DNA from: Actinomycetales bacterium
GTDB lineage: Bacteria; Actinomycetota; Actinomycetes; S36-B12
Reading direction: 5' to 3'
Length of the DNA: 64,000 bases
Assembly: GCA_016125355.1 (NCBI GenBank)
Contig: WGLX01000022.1
Location: forward strand, 1 to 64,000
The notes beneath the pieces are model-generated. The model saw only the letters and a program-made list of their open reading frames with translations. It was not told the DNA's origin and did not search any database. Every line of letters begins with the position of its first letter. The first letter of the stretch is position 1. A program made the position numbers and the translations under genes. This document shows, piece by piece, positions 46,666 to 64,000 of the stretch.

Positions 46666-46725
46666 GGGACAGGTGAGCCAAACCGGCGTGTTTTGTCTCG
46701 CTTCTCCCGCGTCACGGGACAAACG
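46666..46725 (-). repeat. 60-bp hairpin repeat, copy A (solo)
   Basis: Minus-strand copy beginning CGTTTGTCCC and ending TTTGGCTCACCTGTCCC, lying a few bases after the stop of the gmd paralogue. It aligns with copies B and C over 60 nt without gaps. The long hairpin is imperfect here (about four mismatches), and a small inner hairpin CCCG/CGGG is kept. It lies between tandem minus-strand genes and may end the gmd transcript. Confidence 0.75.
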
Positions 46726-46732
46726 CGTCAGG

Positions 46733-47716
46733 TCACGGGATCTGCCAGAGCGCGTCCGGGTCGTCGAGCAGGAGCAGGTCGTACTCCACCATCTTCGTGG
46801 CGATGTGATCGAAGTCGACGGTGTGCCGCCAGCCCAGTTCCAGGTAGGCCGCCCGACTGTCCCCCACGAGGATGTTCGAGTCCACGGGACGCTCGTGCTC
46901 CGAGGCCGTCACGACGTGCATGCGCCAATCCGAGATGCCGACAGCGCGGAAGGCCCGCTGGATGAAGAAGGACAGGCGGTGTGAGATGCCGGTCGCGAGG
47001 ACATAGTCGTGAGGACGTGCCGCGCCAGCCATCTTGCGCATGGCGTCGACGTAGTCCGGTGCCCAGCCCCAGTCCCGCGCCACCTCGATGTTCCCCAGCT
47101 CCAGCGTGTCCTGCATGCCACGCGCGATCCGCGCCACGGCCTTGGAGATCTTGCGAGTCACGAAACGATCGCCGCGTAGGGGTGACTCGTGGTTGTAGAG
47201 GATCGCCGAGGCGGCGAACAGGCCCTCGTCCCGGGCCGCATTGAGGATGGCGATCGCCTCCGCCTTCGACCGCGCGTAGGGCGTCTGGGGCGCGTAGGGC
47301 GAGGACTCCGTCTGAGGCGACCGGTCAGCACCCTCGAAGATGGTCCCGGAGGCGGCCTCGATGAGGGCTGGCGTCCTGCCCCGGCGAGCCAGGGTGCGGA
47401 CCCCGCGAAGCAGCGCTCGCACCGCCTCCACGTTGACCTGGACGGTCAGCTCCGGATTCTCGACGGACTCCATGATGGAGCTGATACCGCCGAAGTTGAA
47501 GACCTGATCGGGCTGGGCCTCGACCACGATGGACTCCAGCTGAGCCGCGTCCGCGAGATCGCACTCGACGAGTTCGGTGCACGGGGCGTACCGGAGAAGT
47601 TCTGCGGGATCGGTGCCCGGCTTCAGGACCCCGACGACCTGATGACCCTCGCGACACAGCTTCGAGGCTAGGATCGTGCCGTCCTGGCCGGCGGCTCCGG
47701 TCACGAGTGCGCGCAC
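46733..47716 (-). CDS. diverged GDP-mannose 4,6-dehydratase paralogue (extended SDR)
   Basis: A 327-residue protein that clearly follows the gmd pattern (TGAAGQDGTILASKL at 6-20, YNHESPLRGDRFVTRKISKAV, ARDWGWAPDYVDAM), yet its active site differs. The catalytic cluster reads S123-G124-T125, where gmd has T-S-E; the glutamate needed for dehydration has no equivalent, although Tyr147 and Lys151 are kept. It may reduce or epimerise the product of the neighbouring gmd, or act on another GDP-sugar. GTG 47716 lies 8 nt after the gmd stop, with AGGG at good spacing. The 3' end runs into a 60-bp hairpin repeat. RMD function is a further option. Confidence 0.83.
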   Translation of the reverse strand: MRALVTGAAGQDGTILASKLCREGHQVVGVLKPGTDPAELLRYAPCTELVECDLADAAQLESIVVEAQPDQVFNFGGISSIMESVENPELTVQVNVEAVRALLRGVRTLARRGRTPALIEAASGTIFEGADRSPQTESSPYAPQTPYARSKAEAIAILNAARDEGLFAASAILYNHESPLRGDRFVTRKISKAVARIARGMQDTLELGNIEVARDWGWAPDYVDAMRKMAGAARPHDYVLATGISHRLSFFIQRAFRAVGISDWRMHVVTASEHERPVDSNILVGDSRAAYLELGWRHTVDFDHIATKMVEYDLLLLDDPDALWQIP

Positions 47717-58435: not shown

Positions 58436-59704
58436 ATGTCCCGTACGACCATGCGGTCACGAGCCGGCAGGGCCCTGCTCGCCGGCGCACTCGCCCTCGG
58501 ACTCGCCGCCGGCACCGCGCTCGCGGCCGGCGCGCCCGCATCCGCCGCGTCGAACGGCTTCATCGCCGTGCCGAACGGCATGGTCGGGGTCAGCGAGAAC
58601 ATCACGATCAACGCACCTGGTGCCAAGGGGCAGATCGTGACCATCGGTCTGCAGCTCGGGGCCACCTCGCAGACGTTGCAGACGACCATTGGCTCGAACG
58701 GGTTCGGAGCCGTGACGTGGACGCCCACCGGCGCGGGCACGTGGACCATCAACGGCCTCGGCGTGATCGCCAACCTGGGCTCGACGAGCGCATCCGTGGC
58801 ACCGATGTCGACGTACACCGTGCTGCTCGCGCAGAGCGCGCTGCAGCAGTCCGCCAACAACAACCTGCTGGCCGGCGTGGTCGCACCCATCGGCACGCTG
58901 GCTCCCACGGGCACGGTGACCCTGCAGACCGGTGGCAGCGGCAATGCACTCGTCACCGCGCCGCTGACGGGGGCCTTCGGCGGAACGACGGCCACCGCAA
59001 CGATCCCGTGGACGCCCACGGTCGGCGGACCCTTCGCCCTTCAGGCCACGTACAACCCGGCCTCGGGCGGGCAGGTCGGCTCCACGAGCCCGATCTCGCA
59101 GCCTGTTATCTCCGCCGGCGTGACCACGGTGTCGGTCCGGTGGCCGACCAACCTGTACGTCGGAACGCCCACGGTGCTCCAGGCGGTGCTCGGGTCGGGC
59201 ATCCCGAACGGCAGCGTGGCCTTCACCTTCGACAACGTGGGCATCAGCGGCTCCATCCCGACGGTGAACGGCGTGGGCACCTTCCAGTGGACCCCGCCCA
59301 CGAGCGGCGTCCACACGATCTCCGTGAGCTACTCGGGCGGCACGCCCAACTCCGCGGGCACGTTCCCGTTCAGCGGTACGGCGTCTCAGGTGGTGCAGAT
59401 CCAGGGCGCGCGTCCGGCGGACAACCTCACGGTGGATCCGCCGACCCAGCCGGTCTGGAACATCGCGCAGCCCATCTCGATGACGGCGGGGTCGACGGTG
59501 ACGCTGGTCGGCTCGAGTCAGTCGGGGACGCCGGTGATCTTCAGCGAGCAGGGGCCATGCGTCATCGCCGGTGCCGTCCTGACCGCGCTGAGCGCCGGCC
59601 AGTGCCAGGTGACGGCGATGTCCCCCGGCAATGCCAGCCTCACGCCCGGGAGCGAGACCTACACCATCACGGTGACCAACCCGCCCAAGCGCAAGAAGCG
59701 CTAA
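58436..59704 (+). CDS. secreted Ig-like-domain surface protein
   Basis: An exported protein of 422 residues. The signal peptide (1-37) has an Arg-rich start and an A-S-A cleavage site at 35-37. The mature part is Ser/Thr/Gly/Val-rich and beta-stranded, with at least three Ig-like repeats: W-T-P-T-G/V-G-x-W motifs near 100 and 180, GTFQWTPPTSGVHTISVSY near 283, and a last domain with GPCVIAGAVLTALSAGQCQVTA, a known actinobacterial Ig-like pattern with a Cys pair. It ends PPKRKKR, basic, with no LPXTG. ATG 58436 follows AAGGAGG. It diverges from wzm, and its stop is followed directly by a 60-bp hairpin repeat. Confidence 0.85.
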   Translation: MSRTTMRSRAGRALLAGALALGLAAGTALAAGAPASAASNGFIAVPNGMVGVSENITINAPGAKGQIVTIGLQLGATSQTLQTTIGSNGFGAVTWTPTGAGTWTINGLGVIANLGSTSASVAPMSTYTVLLAQSALQQSANNNLLAGVVAPIGTLAPTGTVTLQTGGSGNALVTAPLTGAFGGTTATATIPWTPTVGGPFALQATYNPASGGQVGSTSPISQPVISAGVTTVSVRWPTNLYVGTPTVLQAVLGSGIPNGSVAFTFDNVGISGSIPTVNGVGTFQWTPPTSGVHTISVSYSGGTPNSAGTFPFSGTASQVVQIQGARPADNLTVDPPTQPVWNIAQPISMTAGSTVTLVGSSQSGTPVIFSEQGPCVIAGAVLTALSAGQCQVTAMSPGNASLTPGSETYTITVTNPPKRKKR

Positions 59705-59706
59705 CT

Positions 59707-59766
59707 CGTTTCTCCCACGTAGCGGGAGAGGTGAGCCAAAACCACGGGTTTTGGCTCACCTCTCCC
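59707..59766 (+). repeat. 60-bp hairpin repeat, copy B
   Basis: Plus-strand copy beginning CGTTTCTCCC directly after the stop of the Ig-like gene and ending TTTGGCTCACCTCTCCC. It contains a perfect palindrome. It lies between two convergent genes and, with copy C in the opposite direction, brackets the AbiEi/DUF559 gene. Confidence 0.8.
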
Positions 59767-59768
59767 GC
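59722..59768. terminator. perfect 22-bp stem with 3-nt loop, likely bidirectional terminator
   Basis: Arms 59722-59743 and 59747-59768 are exact reverse complements around the loop ACG. The stem holds an AAAA/TTTT run near the loop instead of a trailing U-tract. The position between convergent stops suits a terminator, but the element is also part of the repeat family, so its primary role is open. Confidence 0.55.
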
Positions 59769-59780
59769 TCGTACGTGTCG

Positions 59781-60776
59781 TCATCCCGCCTGGGCGAGCC
59801 CTCCGGCAGTCCAGATCCGTTTCGCGACGGCCCGCATCGAGCCGCTCGCCTCACGCCAGCCCCACCGGACCACGCCGTAACCCGCCGCACGGATTCGATC
59901 CTCGCGGCGCTTCTCCCTCATGAGCACCTCGCGGTCTGTGTACTTGAGTGCCCCGTCCGCTTCGCCGATCACCCGCAGGTGCGAGAAGAGCATGTCGACG
60001 ATGCCTGCCAGCCCGTTCGCATCCGTAATCGGGGCCTGTAGTTCCGGCTCAGGCAGACCAGCCCGGATCAGCCGAAGCCTTGAGAGGGTCTCCACGGGGG
60101 TCTGGGCACCCGTCCTGACGTGCGGTAGGGCCGCAGTGAGGACGCCCGCCCCCGCCAACCTCGGCCACCTCGTGCTCAATGCGCGGAGCCGATGGACCGC
60201 GGCCGGGTCGCGCCAGGCAAGCCCGTCGAGAGTGGCCACGGCCCAATCGCCGTCACTCGCCATGGCCGTCGTCGTCGCGGCGAGGTCGCGTCCCACGACG
60301 AGCAACCCACCGACCCCTGTGACGTCCTCGTCGCCCACATCCAGGACGTGTACGACGGCCGGTGGCAATCGATCTACGGCCGAGATCCGGCGCCGCAGCG
60401 CCCTGCTGTCGCGCCCACGCGGCCGCACAAGGTGCACCGTGCCCAGGAGGCTGCGGTCGCAGGGCAGTCCCCAGGCGACCGCAGCCGAGGGGCCGAACAG
60501 GGCAACGTCGCCGGGCAGGGCGAGCAGTGTCGCCGCCGCAATCAGCCGATGGCGCTCCTCCGGTCCAGCCGCTTCGTCGAGCGTCAGCCGATCCACGTAC
60601 ACGCCGTGATGGAGTCGTACCCACTGCTTGTTGCGGCGCATGGTGAGCACGGAGGTCGGGTCGAGTCCCCAGCCGGCAAGGTCGCTCCGGCGGAAGGCGC
60701 CTCCTTGAGCTGCTGCGCGCTCGCGGACCAGTTGGCGGAGTTCTGCGAGCTCCTGGGACGTACGTCGATCGGGCAT
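59781..60776 (-). CDS. AbiEi-like N-terminal domain plus DUF559 (Vsr-like nuclease fold) protein
   Basis: A 331-residue protein of the common actinobacterial type. Residues about 10-65 form a winged-helix region (GGAFRRSDLAGWGLDPTSV, QWVRLHHGVYVDR) like the AbiEi antitoxin N-terminus; the middle is AbiEi-4-like; residues about 240-315 match DUF559, with an Asp in GIVDMLF, GEADGALKYTDRE (E-x-D...K of the PD-(D/E)XK fold) and RREDRIRAAGYGVVRW. It is not part of any glycan operon and no AbiEii partner is next to it. It is bracketed by inverted copies of a 60-bp hairpin repeat with perfect 16-bp ends. ATG 60776 has no strong ribosome binding site. Confidence 0.88.
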   Translation of the reverse strand: MPDRRTSQELAELRQLVRERAAAQGGAFRRSDLAGWGLDPTSVLTMRRNKQWVRLHHGVYVDRLTLDEAAGPEERHRLIAAATLLALPGDVALFGPSAAVAWGLPCDRSLLGTVHLVRPRGRDSRALRRRISAVDRLPPAVVHVLDVGDEDVTGVGGLLVVGRDLAATTTAMASDGDWAVATLDGLAWRDPAAVHRLRALSTRWPRLAGAGVLTAALPHVRTGAQTPVETLSRLRLIRAGLPEPELQAPITDANGLAGIVDMLFSHLRVIGEADGALKYTDREVLMREKRREDRIRAAGYGVVRWGWREASGSMRAVAKRIWTAGGLAQAG

Positions 60777-60824
60777 GGAGGAACCCTGCCGAGGCAGCCG
60801 ACGTCACTCAACCGACCCTCCACA

Positions 60825-60884
60825 GGGACAGGTGAGCCAAAGCGTCCTCTTTTGACTCACTTGTCCCGCGTCGCGGGAGAAACG
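60825..60884 (-). repeat. 60-bp hairpin repeat, copy C
   Basis: Minus-strand copy beginning CGTTTCTCCC after the stop of the GT4 gene and ending TTTGGCTCACCTGTCCC. Its arm at 60825-60841 is identical over 17 nt to that of copy A. The stem has two mismatched positions and an 8-nt loop; the inner hairpin CCCGC/GCGGG is intact. Confidence 0.8.
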
Positions 60885-60886
60885 AG

Positions 60887-62731
60887 TTAGGCGCCGCGGC
60901 CCTTGACCTTGCGCAGGGGAGCGGTGATCTTCCAGGAGCGGGTGTTCCGCATGAAGTCCATCTCCTGCCGCAGGGCCTCGGCGGCGGCCCGGTGTGCGAC
61001 GACCTGTGCCTGCAGGTCGTCCGCCCGGAGAACCACAAGGGACCGGATGCCCAGGAAGCCCTCGATCGAGTCCGACGCATCTGCCACCGTGAGCGTCACC
61101 TGTGCCGGCTCGCCCGTCTGGCCGTCGCCGAGCGGGAGCGAGATCACCGAGCCCAGGTAGACCTGCTCACTGACCGGACCACCCGGCCCGGCCGCGACGA
61201 TGCGCGCCACGCCGGGCATGGAGCGCGTGGACAGCAGCACCAGGAGCGGGCCGTCGGCGGGTCGGGAGAGGCGGATGTCCACCGACCGTCCGGGCCGGAT
61301 CTCGTAACCCCATGTCTGGGGAGAGCCGACGGCCCCGACGACCACCTCGTCCGCGGTCAGGAAGTCCTCCGTGCCCCGCGGCTGGCGCAGCATGGGCGTC
61401 AGGCCCTCGTCCTGCAGATGCGCGAGGTACTGGTCCGCAAAGCCACTGTCGGGCGCGGCTGACGGCACGCTCAGCATGTACTCGTGCCCGAGCTCGATCT
61501 GGGGGAACACCGGCGTCCTCGCTTCCATCCGTCGAACGGCACAGACCTCGTCCATGATGACCCTCGCGACCGAGTCCCACGTGATCGCCGGACGCGAGTC
61601 CTCCGCTATCCGCGCCTCGCGAGCGCCGCGTGCCGCGACGTTCAGTGCCTTGCTCTCGAGCACGCGCACGAAGTCGTCCACGTCGTCGCTGGCGAAGTAG
61701 TCGGCGAGCTCACCGCCCGCCTCGCGAAGGGAGGAGTTGTCGGCAACCACCGCCATGCGACCGAAGGCGAGACTCTCCGACACCGGCAGGCCCCAGCCCT
61801 CGTAGCGGGAGGGGTACACGGTGAACTCCGCATGCGCGTAGAACGAGGCCAGGTCCGCATCGCTCACGCTGCTCGAGAGCACGCTCACCTTGCCCCCGAG
61901 TCCGCCTGAGCGCACGTACGCGTCGAGGAACTCGTCGGCATGCCACCCGAGCCGCCCGATGCACACGAGGTCCGGCACGTTCTCGGCTCCTCGGTCGTCG
62001 ATCAGCCGCTCCCACGCGCGCAGCGCCAGCACGTGGTTCTTCCGCGACTCGATGGTGCCGACGAACAGGGCGTAGGGGCGCGGCCACGGCTCGCGGCTCG
62101 TGTCGTACTGCTCGGGATCGAGCCCGCACGGCAGCCCGGTGACCCGGCCGGGCGGCACAGCCCAGCCGCGCTCGTCGCAGTACTCCGTGAAGTCCCGCCG
62201 GCTCGACGCCGAGATGGCGGGCACAGCGGAGCCGGTAGCCGCCACCAGGGCGAGGTACCGCTCGAACAGGCGGTTGACGGCAGCCGTATGTCCCGTCTGC
62301 AGCACAGGTGTCAGGTCGTAGAGCAGGTAGACACAGCGTGCCCCCGCCGCGTGCGCCCGTCGCGCGGCGAGCATCAGGGCGTCATTGATCCACACCGCCC
62401 CCAAGAACACGAGCGTGGTCTCCTCGTCGATGGACACCGGCTCAGCCGACCGGGCTCGCTCGAGGCAGGATCTCGACGCCTGGGCGAGGGCGCCGCGATC
62501 GGGCGCCGGATTCCGCGATCCCGCCCCCGTCCGGATCAGCAGGTCGATCTCGTGATCGGAGAGCGCGACCAGTTCGCCCCGCGAGCGGTCGAGGACGACG
62601 GGAACGGGCGGCTCATCGGAATCGAGCATTCGCGGAGCCGTCTCCGCGATCACCCGCTGAACACCCGAGACCGACTCCTGGCGCTGCAGGAACTCCACGA
62701 GGTCGGTGACGTCGAGGAGCAGCCCTGCCAT
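60887..62731 (-). CDS. family 4 glycosyltransferase with C-terminal beta-rich extension
   Basis: A 614-residue protein from ATG 62731. GT-B domain about 1-420: MAGLLLDVTDLVEFLQRQESVSGVQRV, VYLLYDLTPVLQTG, AISASSRRDFTEY, ALFVGTIESRKNHVLALRAW and YPSRYEGWGLPVSESLAFGRMAVV (E-x7-E). The rest (about 440-590) is a beta-rich region of unknown family and the end is NTRSWKITAPLRKVKGRG, a basic helix common in this locus. ATG 62731 is 6 nt after TACGCT, which explains the absence of a ribosome binding site. The stop codon TAA lies in the 16-bp outer end of the downstream inverted repeat. Confidence 0.88.
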   Translation of the reverse strand: MAGLLLDVTDLVEFLQRQESVSGVQRVIAETAPRMLDSDEPPVPVVLDRSRGELVALSDHEIDLLIRTGAGSRNPAPDRGALAQASRSCLERARSAEPVSIDEETTLVFLGAVWINDALMLAARRAHAAGARCVYLLYDLTPVLQTGHTAAVNRLFERYLALVAATGSAVPAISASSRRDFTEYCDERGWAVPPGRVTGLPCGLDPEQYDTSREPWPRPYALFVGTIESRKNHVLALRAWERLIDDRGAENVPDLVCIGRLGWHADEFLDAYVRSGGLGGKVSVLSSSVSDADLASFYAHAEFTVYPSRYEGWGLPVSESLAFGRMAVVADNSSLREAGGELADYFASDDVDDFVRVLESKALNVAARGAREARIAEDSRPAITWDSVARVIMDEVCAVRRMEARTPVFPQIELGHEYMLSVPSAAPDSGFADQYLAHLQDEGLTPMLRQPRGTEDFLTADEVVVGAVGSPQTWGYEIRPGRSVDIRLSRPADGPLLVLLSTRSMPGVARIVAAGPGGPVSEQVYLGSVISLPLGDGQTGEPAQVTLTVADASDSIEGFLGIRSLVVLRADDLQAQVVAHRAAAEALRQEMDFMRNTRSWKITAPLRKVKGRGA

Positions 62732-62737
62732 GCGCAC

Positions 62738-62743
62738 AGCGTA
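62738..62743 (-). promoter_or_regulatory. -10 box TACGCT, leaderless start of the GT4 gene at 62731
   Basis: TACGCT on the minus strand, 6 nt before ATG 62731. Confidence 0.55.
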
Positions 62744-62762
62744 GGGGAGCAGGCGAGGCCCG

Positions 62763-62768
62763 TATCCT
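62763..62768 (+). promoter_or_regulatory. -10 box TATCCT, leaderless start at 62775
   Basis: TATCCT, 6 nt, then GTG 62775, in the 43-bp gap between divergent genes. Confidence 0.55.
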
Positions 62769-62774
62769 GCCGAC

Positions 62775-64000
62775 GTGGCCGGACCGGGTTGGCGCTCCCG
62801 TGCTGCGGACGGGCTGATCGTCCTGGGCCTGTCCGCCTTCGCGGCGTTCTTCTCGGGTGCGCAGCGGTGGACGGGCTTCAACTCGCCGGACTCGGAGTTC
62901 TACGCCTCCTTGGCACTGTTCGGCGACGACGTCGCCGGTCGGGCGATCGATCCCGCCTACACGACCACGCGTCTGGGCTACATCGTGCCCGTCCGGGGAC
63001 TCACCTCCGTCCTGGGTGCATGGACCGGCTTCGCTCTCTGGCGCTTCCTCCTGATCCTCGCCATCGTGGGTGCGCTCTACGGACTCGTCCGCCTCGCGAG
63101 CACCCGACAGCTGGCGACGCTGGTCGCCGCCGCGGGGGCGCTGAACACCGTCGTGCTCAGCTTCGTCGGCAACACGTATCTCACCGGCACCCTGATGGCC
63201 GGGGTGCTGCTCCTGATCCTGCTCGGTGCGTGGCCCGTGCTCGCGGCGCCGCGATCGACCTGGCTGCCCCCGCTCTTGTCGGGCGTCGTCGTCGCATGGC
63301 TGGTGATGGTCAACCCGTACGGCGGGCTGCTCGGCCTGTCCCTGTGGTTCGGGCTGAGGACGTACCTGCTGGTGACGGAGCCGGACGGTCGCTGGCGCAG
63401 CCTGGGGCGTGATGCAGCGATGGCGGTCGGCGGCTTCGCGCTGACCACCGGCGCGTTCCTGCTGGCTGGCACCTGGGTCTTCCCCGGACGGTCCTGGCTG
63501 GGCACCTACCTCGATTGGAACGCGCGCCTGGACTACTCGGTGTTCGTGGGCGACGAGGCGGTCTGGCAGCGCGACATCGCCCTGCTCGTGCCTGCGGTGG
63601 CTGTGCTCATTGCCGCCACCGCCACGCTCCTCGCGCGGGATCGACGAGCGGCGGTGGCAGGCCTCGTCGTTGCCGTCCTCAACGGCGTGTTCACCTTCGG
63701 CTACCTGCGACTCGTCCCAGGTCCATGGCTGGAGGCACCGACCTATGTGGCACTGCTCTGGCCGGGAGCCCTGGCCGGCGTGGCGCTGTCGTTCGCAGCC
63801 ATCGTCGGCAGCCGAACCCTGGGGTGGCTCGGGTGGGTCCTCGGCGTCGCGGCGCTACCGTTCGCGCTGTGGGCCGGGCGATGGGACCAGGACGTGTCGG
63901 GAGGCGCCGGGCTGCTCGTCGCTGGCGTCGTCCTGCTGCTCTTCGTCGTCACGGCCCTCGCCTGGAGGCGCGCCCCCGAGCGCTGGCTGAGCGGTGCCCT
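62775..64000 (+). CDS. polytopic membrane protein, 3' end cut by window edge
   Basis: The frame stays open from GTG 62775 to the right edge, giving 408 codons. At least ten hydrophobic helices are visible. The first loop, QRWTGFNSPDSEFYASLALFGDDVAG, has the acidic D-S-E-F-Y motif of GT-C-like membrane proteins, then AYTTTRLGYIVPVRGL, and a later loop has TYLDWNARLDYSVFVGD. It is not a member of a family I can name. GTG 62775 has TATCCT 6 nt upstream (leaderless) and is divergent from the GT4 gene across 43 bp. Confidence 0.72.
   Translation, partial: MAGPGWRSRAADGLIVLGLSAFAAFFSGAQRWTGFNSPDSEFYASLALFGDDVAGRAIDPAYTTTRLGYIVPVRGLTSVLGAWTGFALWRFLLILAIVGALYGLVRLASTRQLATLVAAAGALNTVVLSFVGNTYLTGTLMAGVLLLILLGAWPVLAAPRSTWLPPLLSGVVVAWLVMVNPYGGLLGLSLWFGLRTYLLVTEPDGRWRSLGRDAAMAVGGFALTTGAFLLAGTWVFPGRSWLGTYLDWNARLDYSVFVGDEAVWQRDIALLVPAVAVLIAATATLLARDRRAAVAGLVVAVLNGVFTFGYLRLVPGPWLEAPTYVALLWPGALAGVALSFAAIVGSRTLGWLGWVLGVAALPFALWAGRWDQDVSGGAGLLVAGVVLLLFVVTALAWRRAPERWLSGA

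Follow-up and report, generated by a model that had tools for sequence, protein, structure and literature searches.

Nuclease genes with their own palindromic repeats across actinobacteria suggest an unrecognised kind of mobile DNA

In a 64,000-nucleotide stretch of an Actinomycetales bacterium (contig WGLX01000022.1, assembly GCA_016125355.1; the window), a single gene for a 331-residue protein with AbiEi-like and DUF559-like features lies between two inverted palindromic repeats, together forming a unit of 1.19 kb. The source genome comprises 3.34 Mb in 45 contigs. The two 16-bp ends of the unit, CTAACTCGTTTCTCCC, are identical and inverted (59701-59716 on the forward strand, 60875-60890 on the reverse strand), and the predicted fold continues each of them inward as a hairpin, all of which agrees with the initial annotation of this DNA. 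The only perfect inverted 16-mers spaced no more than 1.3 kb apart in the window were these ends and the left copy's own hairpin; ten mononucleotide shuffles yielded a total of one. The unit is neighboured by a signal-peptide-like open reading frame (ORF) with no family match and by a glycosyltransferase gene (Table 1).

Table 1. Features at the repeat-bracketed gene and its nearest copy (positions in the window; structural comparisons refer to a predicted model)
Feature	Position	Strand	Description and basis
Left end element	59699-59768	+	One 43-bp unit (59699-59741) and the inner arm of a second unit, inverted and truncated, forming a long hairpin; R1 match 60.4 bits; inverted 16-mers 59721-59769; fold
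TAA stop of left gene (58436-59704)	59702-59704	+	At columns 4-6 of the unit, within the element's outer end
DUF559/AbiEi protein, 331 residues	59781-60776	-	ORF, Pfam, predicted structure
AbiEi-like N-terminal part, residues 8-221: winged helix and second domain	60114-60755	-	6y8q, Z 11.3, root-mean-square deviation (rmsd) 5.4, 185 aligned
Vsr/I-Bth0305I-like nuclease domain, residues 224-328, with E229, D261, E272, D274	59793-60107	-	3r3p, Z 11.0, rmsd 2.7, 93 aligned; 1cw0, Z 9.4
Right end element, inverted relative to left	60825-60892	-	One unit (60850-60892) and truncated second arm; R1 match 60.9 bits
Stop codon of right gene (60887-62881, glycosyltransferase-like)	60887-60889	-	Unit columns 4-6
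Putative non-autonomous copy, 13 kb from the unit	46666-46733	-	R1 match 50.9 bits at 46691-46733

DUF559/AbiEi proteins are very common in actinobacteria, where their annotations read either antitoxin or unknown. Pfam placed AbiEi_4 above its cut-off in the 331-residue protein (32.2 versus 25 bits) and DUF559 just below (16.7 versus 20.6 bits); NCBIfam gave no match, and no known transposase family appeared among the results from either database. Among 20 homologs, 12 reached DUF559 and 11 reached AbiEi_4 at an E value of 0.001; PADLOC labelled 18 of 20 homologs as AbiEi. AlphaFold2, run on alignment A2, gave a model with a pLDDT of 89.0 and a pTM of 0.85. In this model, the N-terminal two thirds align to the AbiEi antitoxin 6y8q, and the C-terminal domain is closest to I-Bth0305I (3r3p), followed by Vsr (1cw0) and, more weakly, TnsA (Z 6.3; Foldseek and VIA-align). 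E229 and D261 are conserved in all 90 aligned homologs, and E272 and D274 in 89 of 90; judged by the fold and the chemistry of Vsr and EDxHD enzymes, these four are putative catalytic residues.

The repeat at both ends, which we call R1, is a palindrome of 43 bp, its 14-pair stem closed by a 3-base loop, as found by aligning 30 units. Its feet read CTRRCTCG on the outer side and GAGCCAAAA on the inner side, and GTAG/CTAC occurs in these units only at the hairpin apex or loop, never at the foot. The unit is asymmetric (outer TTTCTCCC, inner GGGACA), so that two inverted units can pair with each other. A genome search with the right-hand copy returned 43 pieces, and a covariance model built from the aligned units, used to list sites genome-wide, found at least 21 R1 sites in the source genome. 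Among the sites listed, 13 are inverted doublets, with start-to-start distances of 60 bp (nine), 50 bp (three) or 71 bp (one). These distances, found for example at C4:40053-40155 and C11:220294-220386 (G, C and L numbers are our handles for genomes, contigs and loci), differ by steps near one helical turn, which suggests that a dimer sits along a single face of the duplex. The core GTGAGYCAAA occurs eight times in the genome, always within these elements, and a reversed control pattern does not occur at all. The initial annotation had regarded 46666-46725 as a third, solo copy; this copy is real, although diverged (84% identity to the right-hand copy over 46666-46728), but it is one of the sites counted above rather than the third. 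Most R1 copies lie away from DUF559 genes, at many gene ends, as would be expected of non-autonomous copies, and none of the source genome's other six Pfam DUF559 matches has R1 beside it. Rfam gave nothing near a gathering score, and we took its four sub-threshold matches, to unrelated families, as chance. No T-run of the classical intrinsic terminator type follows the stems on inspection of the sequence (no terminator scan was made). In the genome G008 (L033-L080), some R1 copies stand in closer three-unit arrays, such as G008:C25:17802-17964.

As a general rule, DUF559-AbiEi genes stand between copies of a lineage-specific repeat. Our first set consisted of the source genome and 58 relatives. 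Protein matches at E <= 1e-6 occurred in 40 of these 59 genomes, including the source genome; 98 such matches and three further Pfam matches from the source genome gave 101 genes, of which 86 were testable, the rest lying at contig edges. We counted a gene as bracketed when its upstream and downstream flanks had a repeat in common at a BLAST score of at least 34 bits. This was the case for 65 of the 86 genes, and for 68 at 30 bits or more; since the score is that of the best upstream-versus-downstream match, matches of about 34 bits are short. None of 129 neighbouring ORFs treated alike reached 30 bits (Fisher P = 1.4e-39 at that level), and only 6 of 591 flank pairs drawn from different genomes did so. 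A second set of 80 named loci was found with alignment A2 (a query of genome contigs with the single protein recovered no relative); it spans Kribbella, Arthrobacter, Leifsonia, Naasia and Knoellia, among others, and includes many Kribbella loci at one syntenic position. Here, 51 of 74 testable genes were bracketed, or 44 of 66 after removal of nine loci shared with the first set, compared with 1 of 278 neighbouring ORFs. Genes of DUF222, another orphan nuclease family, were never bracketed (0/28). Over-extended gene starts can hide repeats: at G007:C387, repeats seen in one analysis were missing from another. Folding is also stronger in module flanks than in windows at a distance of 1.3-1.5 kb, with z below -3 against mononucleotide shuffles in 27 of 65 and 23 of 64 cases versus 3 of 117. 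The RAYT-like link between the DUF559 protein and the hairpins that the initial annotation had guessed is supported by these counts as far as association goes. The outcome that it had named as contrary, a repeat spread over many gene ends with no tie to DUF559 genes, occurs only in part: R1 itself is mostly found at gene ends elsewhere, but lineage-specific bracketing is widespread among DUF559-AbiEi genes.

The repeat sequence varies by gene lineage and follows protein similarity. Across all 2080 pairs of 65 bracketed modules, similar flanks were found in 12 of 14 pairs with at least 55% protein identity, 17 of 69 at 45-55%, 8 of 93 at 40-45%, 3 of 113 at 35-40% and 4 of 1791 below 35%; a few of the similar-flank pairs reflect shared flank sequence of the citrate synthase gene (gltA) and not repeats. 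The source genome itself holds a second family, a 79-bp repeat around the paralog at C36:37614-38522, with 83 BLAST pieces that merge into about 40 places. Galactobacter likewise contains 28 pieces of its own repeat, of which four other genera have none. R1 was listed with at least six matches in 10 of the 59 genomes; nine of these 10 also had close homologs of the protein (E < 1e-60, a threshold picked after inspection of the table), which the remaining 49 lacked entirely.

Individual sites occur both with and without the unit. These site states and the association with repeats lend good support to a class of mobile units with palindromic ends and dispersed non-autonomous doublets, and to movement of the unit. 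In a survey of 16 genomes reached through the Kribbella loci (one labelled Streptomyces), we located an intergenic site between convergent genes in 15. Three genomes carry a full unit there, one a remnant and two a solo doublet of about 95 bp, and three have the empty site that the initial annotation had sought, with the flanks joined within 2, 9 and 30 bp; of the remainder, one has an unclassified 147-bp gap and five are rearranged or otherwise filled. By eye, one solo doublet is like the repeat of the same genome's module elsewhere; the other is similar to the type seen in K. soli. Related units are carried by K. soli and K. sindirgiensis (L292 and L294), with 87.5% protein identity, in opposite orientation at the same site, owing to either a flip or an independent insertion. 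A second Kribbella position is common to 12 loci. Here, the flanks of K. pratensis VKM Ac-2574 and K. soli show 95% and 98% identity right up to where the repeats begin, and the units between them have different repeats and proteins with 57% identity, so that whole units have been exchanged; the K. soli and K. sindirgiensis proteins at this position are 94% identical. DUF559 units also lie at the 3' end of gltA in 6 of 30 loci examined and, by coordinates, in G007. This recurrent insertion site (L321, L322, L325, L327, L337, L343) is used in different genera of the window's own order; in the source genome and G008 this position lacks both a unit and R1, and their units are located elsewhere. 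Four flank proteins of the window had no match in the module records of 11 relatives, and no tRNA gene served as an insertion site in the window or at 20 module loci.

Both neighbouring genes in the window terminate exactly within the outer ends of R1, where the sequence CTRRCTCG provides a built-in stop codon (TAA, TGA or TAG). Across 18 sites, 23 gene 3' ends point towards an R1 element, and 13 of them stop at unit columns 4-6. These ends came from a crude gene caller based on third-position GC content, which missed the DUF559 gene beside the left element; we therefore took only exact stop-codon coincidences from its output and did not use its orientation counts. The coincidence is suggestive, and insertion at the 3' ends of genes, which the initial annotation had thought conceivable, holds at the window and at several other sites.

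We give a probability of roughly two in three to the reading that the 1.19-kb unit is a mobile element with an AbiEi-Vsr-fold nuclease between palindromic ends, that the doublets are its non-autonomous, REPIN-like forms (REPINs being doublets of repetitive extragenic palindromic (REP) sequences) and that the nuclease drives their spread. The system would then best be read as an actinobacterial analogue, on an unrelated nuclease, of the REP-associated tyrosine transposases (RAYTs) and their REPINs. The AbiEi-like winged-helix part may bind its cognate palindrome, a dimer probably occupying the inverted pair, and the C-terminal PD-(D/E)XK domain would cut the ends, folded or in cruciform shape, at their outer edges or close by. 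The segment thereby released or copied, either a doublet alone or the whole gene unit, would be joined into intergenic DNA at gene 3' ends, perhaps with host repair, and the stop codons in the repeat ends may limit damage at such sites. We infer binding, cleavage and this order of strand events, and also the role of this protein, and not of some other enzyme, as the driver of movement; the nuclease as mobilising enzyme is the most economical reading. We are also modestly inclined to the view that, in Actinomycetota, AbiEi-DUF559 proteins form a large class of transposition enzymes that has gone unrecognised. Their nuclease fold would be of the Vsr/TnsA type, neither HUH nor DDE; they would spread cognate REPIN-like doublets in trans and their own gene in cis, with gene 3' ends as targets, and each lineage would co-evolve with its own palindrome.

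Like a RAYT/REPtron (PMC3116915, PMC8266576), the unit consists of a gene flanked by palindromic repeats that differ by lineage, with cognate intergenic copies that are mostly inverted doublets. It differs in its enzyme (a RAYT is a Y1 HUH transposase), in lacking at the R1 foot the GTAG-type tag that REPs have at the foot of the palindrome, and in that the gene unit itself is insertion-polymorphic. The excerpted text of one paper describes RAYT REPs with a tetranucleotide tag and RAYTs as single-copy genes, and reports no evidence there of tnpAREP mobility (PMC8266576). Excerpts of two others describe REPINs as inverted doublets with spacings of 71 and 110 bp (PMC3116915), and CGTC REPs without a dedicated transposase together with RAYT relatives flanked by terminal inverted repeats (PMC3733652).

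Several observations weigh against the nuclease-driven reading. At 34 bits, a bracketing repeat is missing from 21 of the 86 testable genes in the first set and from 22 of the 66 in the second. The best bracketing match is inverted in 39 of 65 modules and direct in 26, with both orientations present in 28, as is partly expected of palindromic ends. The genome G009 (73% complete) has R1 without a close protein, and the close homologs of G024 have repeats other than R1 at their flanks, so that this genome lends weak support to the co-occurrence. Inspection of the Kribbella junctions by eye, in species that have diverged, revealed no target-site duplication. Of the 59 genomes, 57 lack the Y1 transposase domain (Y1_Tnp, PF01797), the source genome among them, but DDE and other trans-acting transposases were not searched. 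Finally, bracketing is not unique to DUF559, since the second repeat family has two inverted pairs, about 1 kb each, that enclose other genes. By eye, these encode a PfkB-like protein of about 300 residues (G000:C8:16938-17923, L206) and a HEAT-like protein of 282 residues (G000:C36:150537-151540, L207). A check of the interiors of these two pairs for decayed DUF559 genes gave no match, and cargo capture or coincidence is possible.

The nuclease domain has its nearest relative in I-Bth0305I, of the EDxHD/Vsr-like homing endonucleases, and as with those enzymes the unit is present in some alleles of a site and absent from others. A homing-type nuclease could cut unit-free or differently occupied alleles of one fixed intergenic site, with the unit then copied in through its flanks by homologous recombination; the repeats would be binding sites or terminators, dispersed by other means. 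The recurrent Kribbella and gltA sites and the exchange of units between conserved flanks fit this possibility, which we nevertheless consider unlikely: cognate doublets stand at dozens of unrelated sites, a spread that homing alone leaves unexplained, and units of related lineage lie at different places. The unit lies outside any intron or intein and has its own palindromic ends, dispersed short copies and an AbiEi-like, predicted DNA-binding part.

Terminal inverted repeats and short non-autonomous copies are also typical of insertion sequences and miniature inverted-repeat transposable elements, including TIRYT/TIRtrons. An unrelated transposase might spread the repeats as its terminal inverted repeats, with the DUF559/AbiEi gene as cargo, for example a defence gene, in keeping with the PADLOC labels and the occasional bracketing of other genes. 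We hold this to be improbable, because the repeat sequence follows DUF559 protein similarity and the Y1 domain, the one searched for, is missing from nearly all of the genomes. The unit also departs from such elements in that its protein matches no known transposase family in Pfam or NCBIfam and its ends are themselves hairpins or doublets.

Still less credible is an AbiEi-like repressor without mobility, with operators flanking its gene and scattered over a regulon. The protein has the N-terminal fold and the AbiEi_4 match of AbiE type IV toxin-antitoxin systems, whose AbiEi proteins autoregulate by binding inverted repeats in promoters, according to excerpts of PMC7319586, and the palindromes fold strongly and are located at gene ends, as operators or terminators might. 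However, copies occur downstream as well as upstream, the doublets are mostly at gene ends and not promoters, one site is found empty, solo and full, and the protein has an extra nuclease domain with conserved acidic residues. Unlike in AbiE, no AbiEii-like gene adjoins the unit in the window (NCBIfam, two adjoining genes; neighbours at other loci were not scanned). That REP-like repeats stand by an ordinary gene through coincidence, which their dispersal mostly away from DUF559 genes might suggest, is contradicted by the neighbour, second-set and DUF222 controls and has almost nothing to recommend it.

To our knowledge, REP-like repeats outside RAYT-bearing bacteria have no known driver. If the nuclease-driven reading is true, one enzyme family would account for both these repeats and the DUF559/AbiEi proteins. 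REP-type mobile DNA would have a second, independent origin, in a nuclease fold akin to those of repair and homing enzymes, with evidence for movement of the gene unit itself, and dozens of enzyme-repeat pairs would be at hand for the study of specificity co-evolution.

Judged by title or the start of the abstract, none of the 14 open-access papers containing 'DUF559' dealt with repeats, and we found no description of such a system in the open-access literature, including by way of COG2852, Vsr-like proteins and homing endonucleases (subscription papers and preprints lay outside the search). RepRanger lists REPs of Actinomycetota, and its excerpted text mentions no transposase, RAYT or nuclease there (PMC12306157); an excerpt of PMC3710099 names a Vsr-like restriction endonuclease, MTES_1575, in another context. 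Lastly, CAMAWO010000024.1 and related records (L213, L216, L217, L227) are titled as metagenome-assembled genomes of Bifidobacterium breve, but their module contigs group with the freshwater actinobacteria analysed here, and the label may be wrong.

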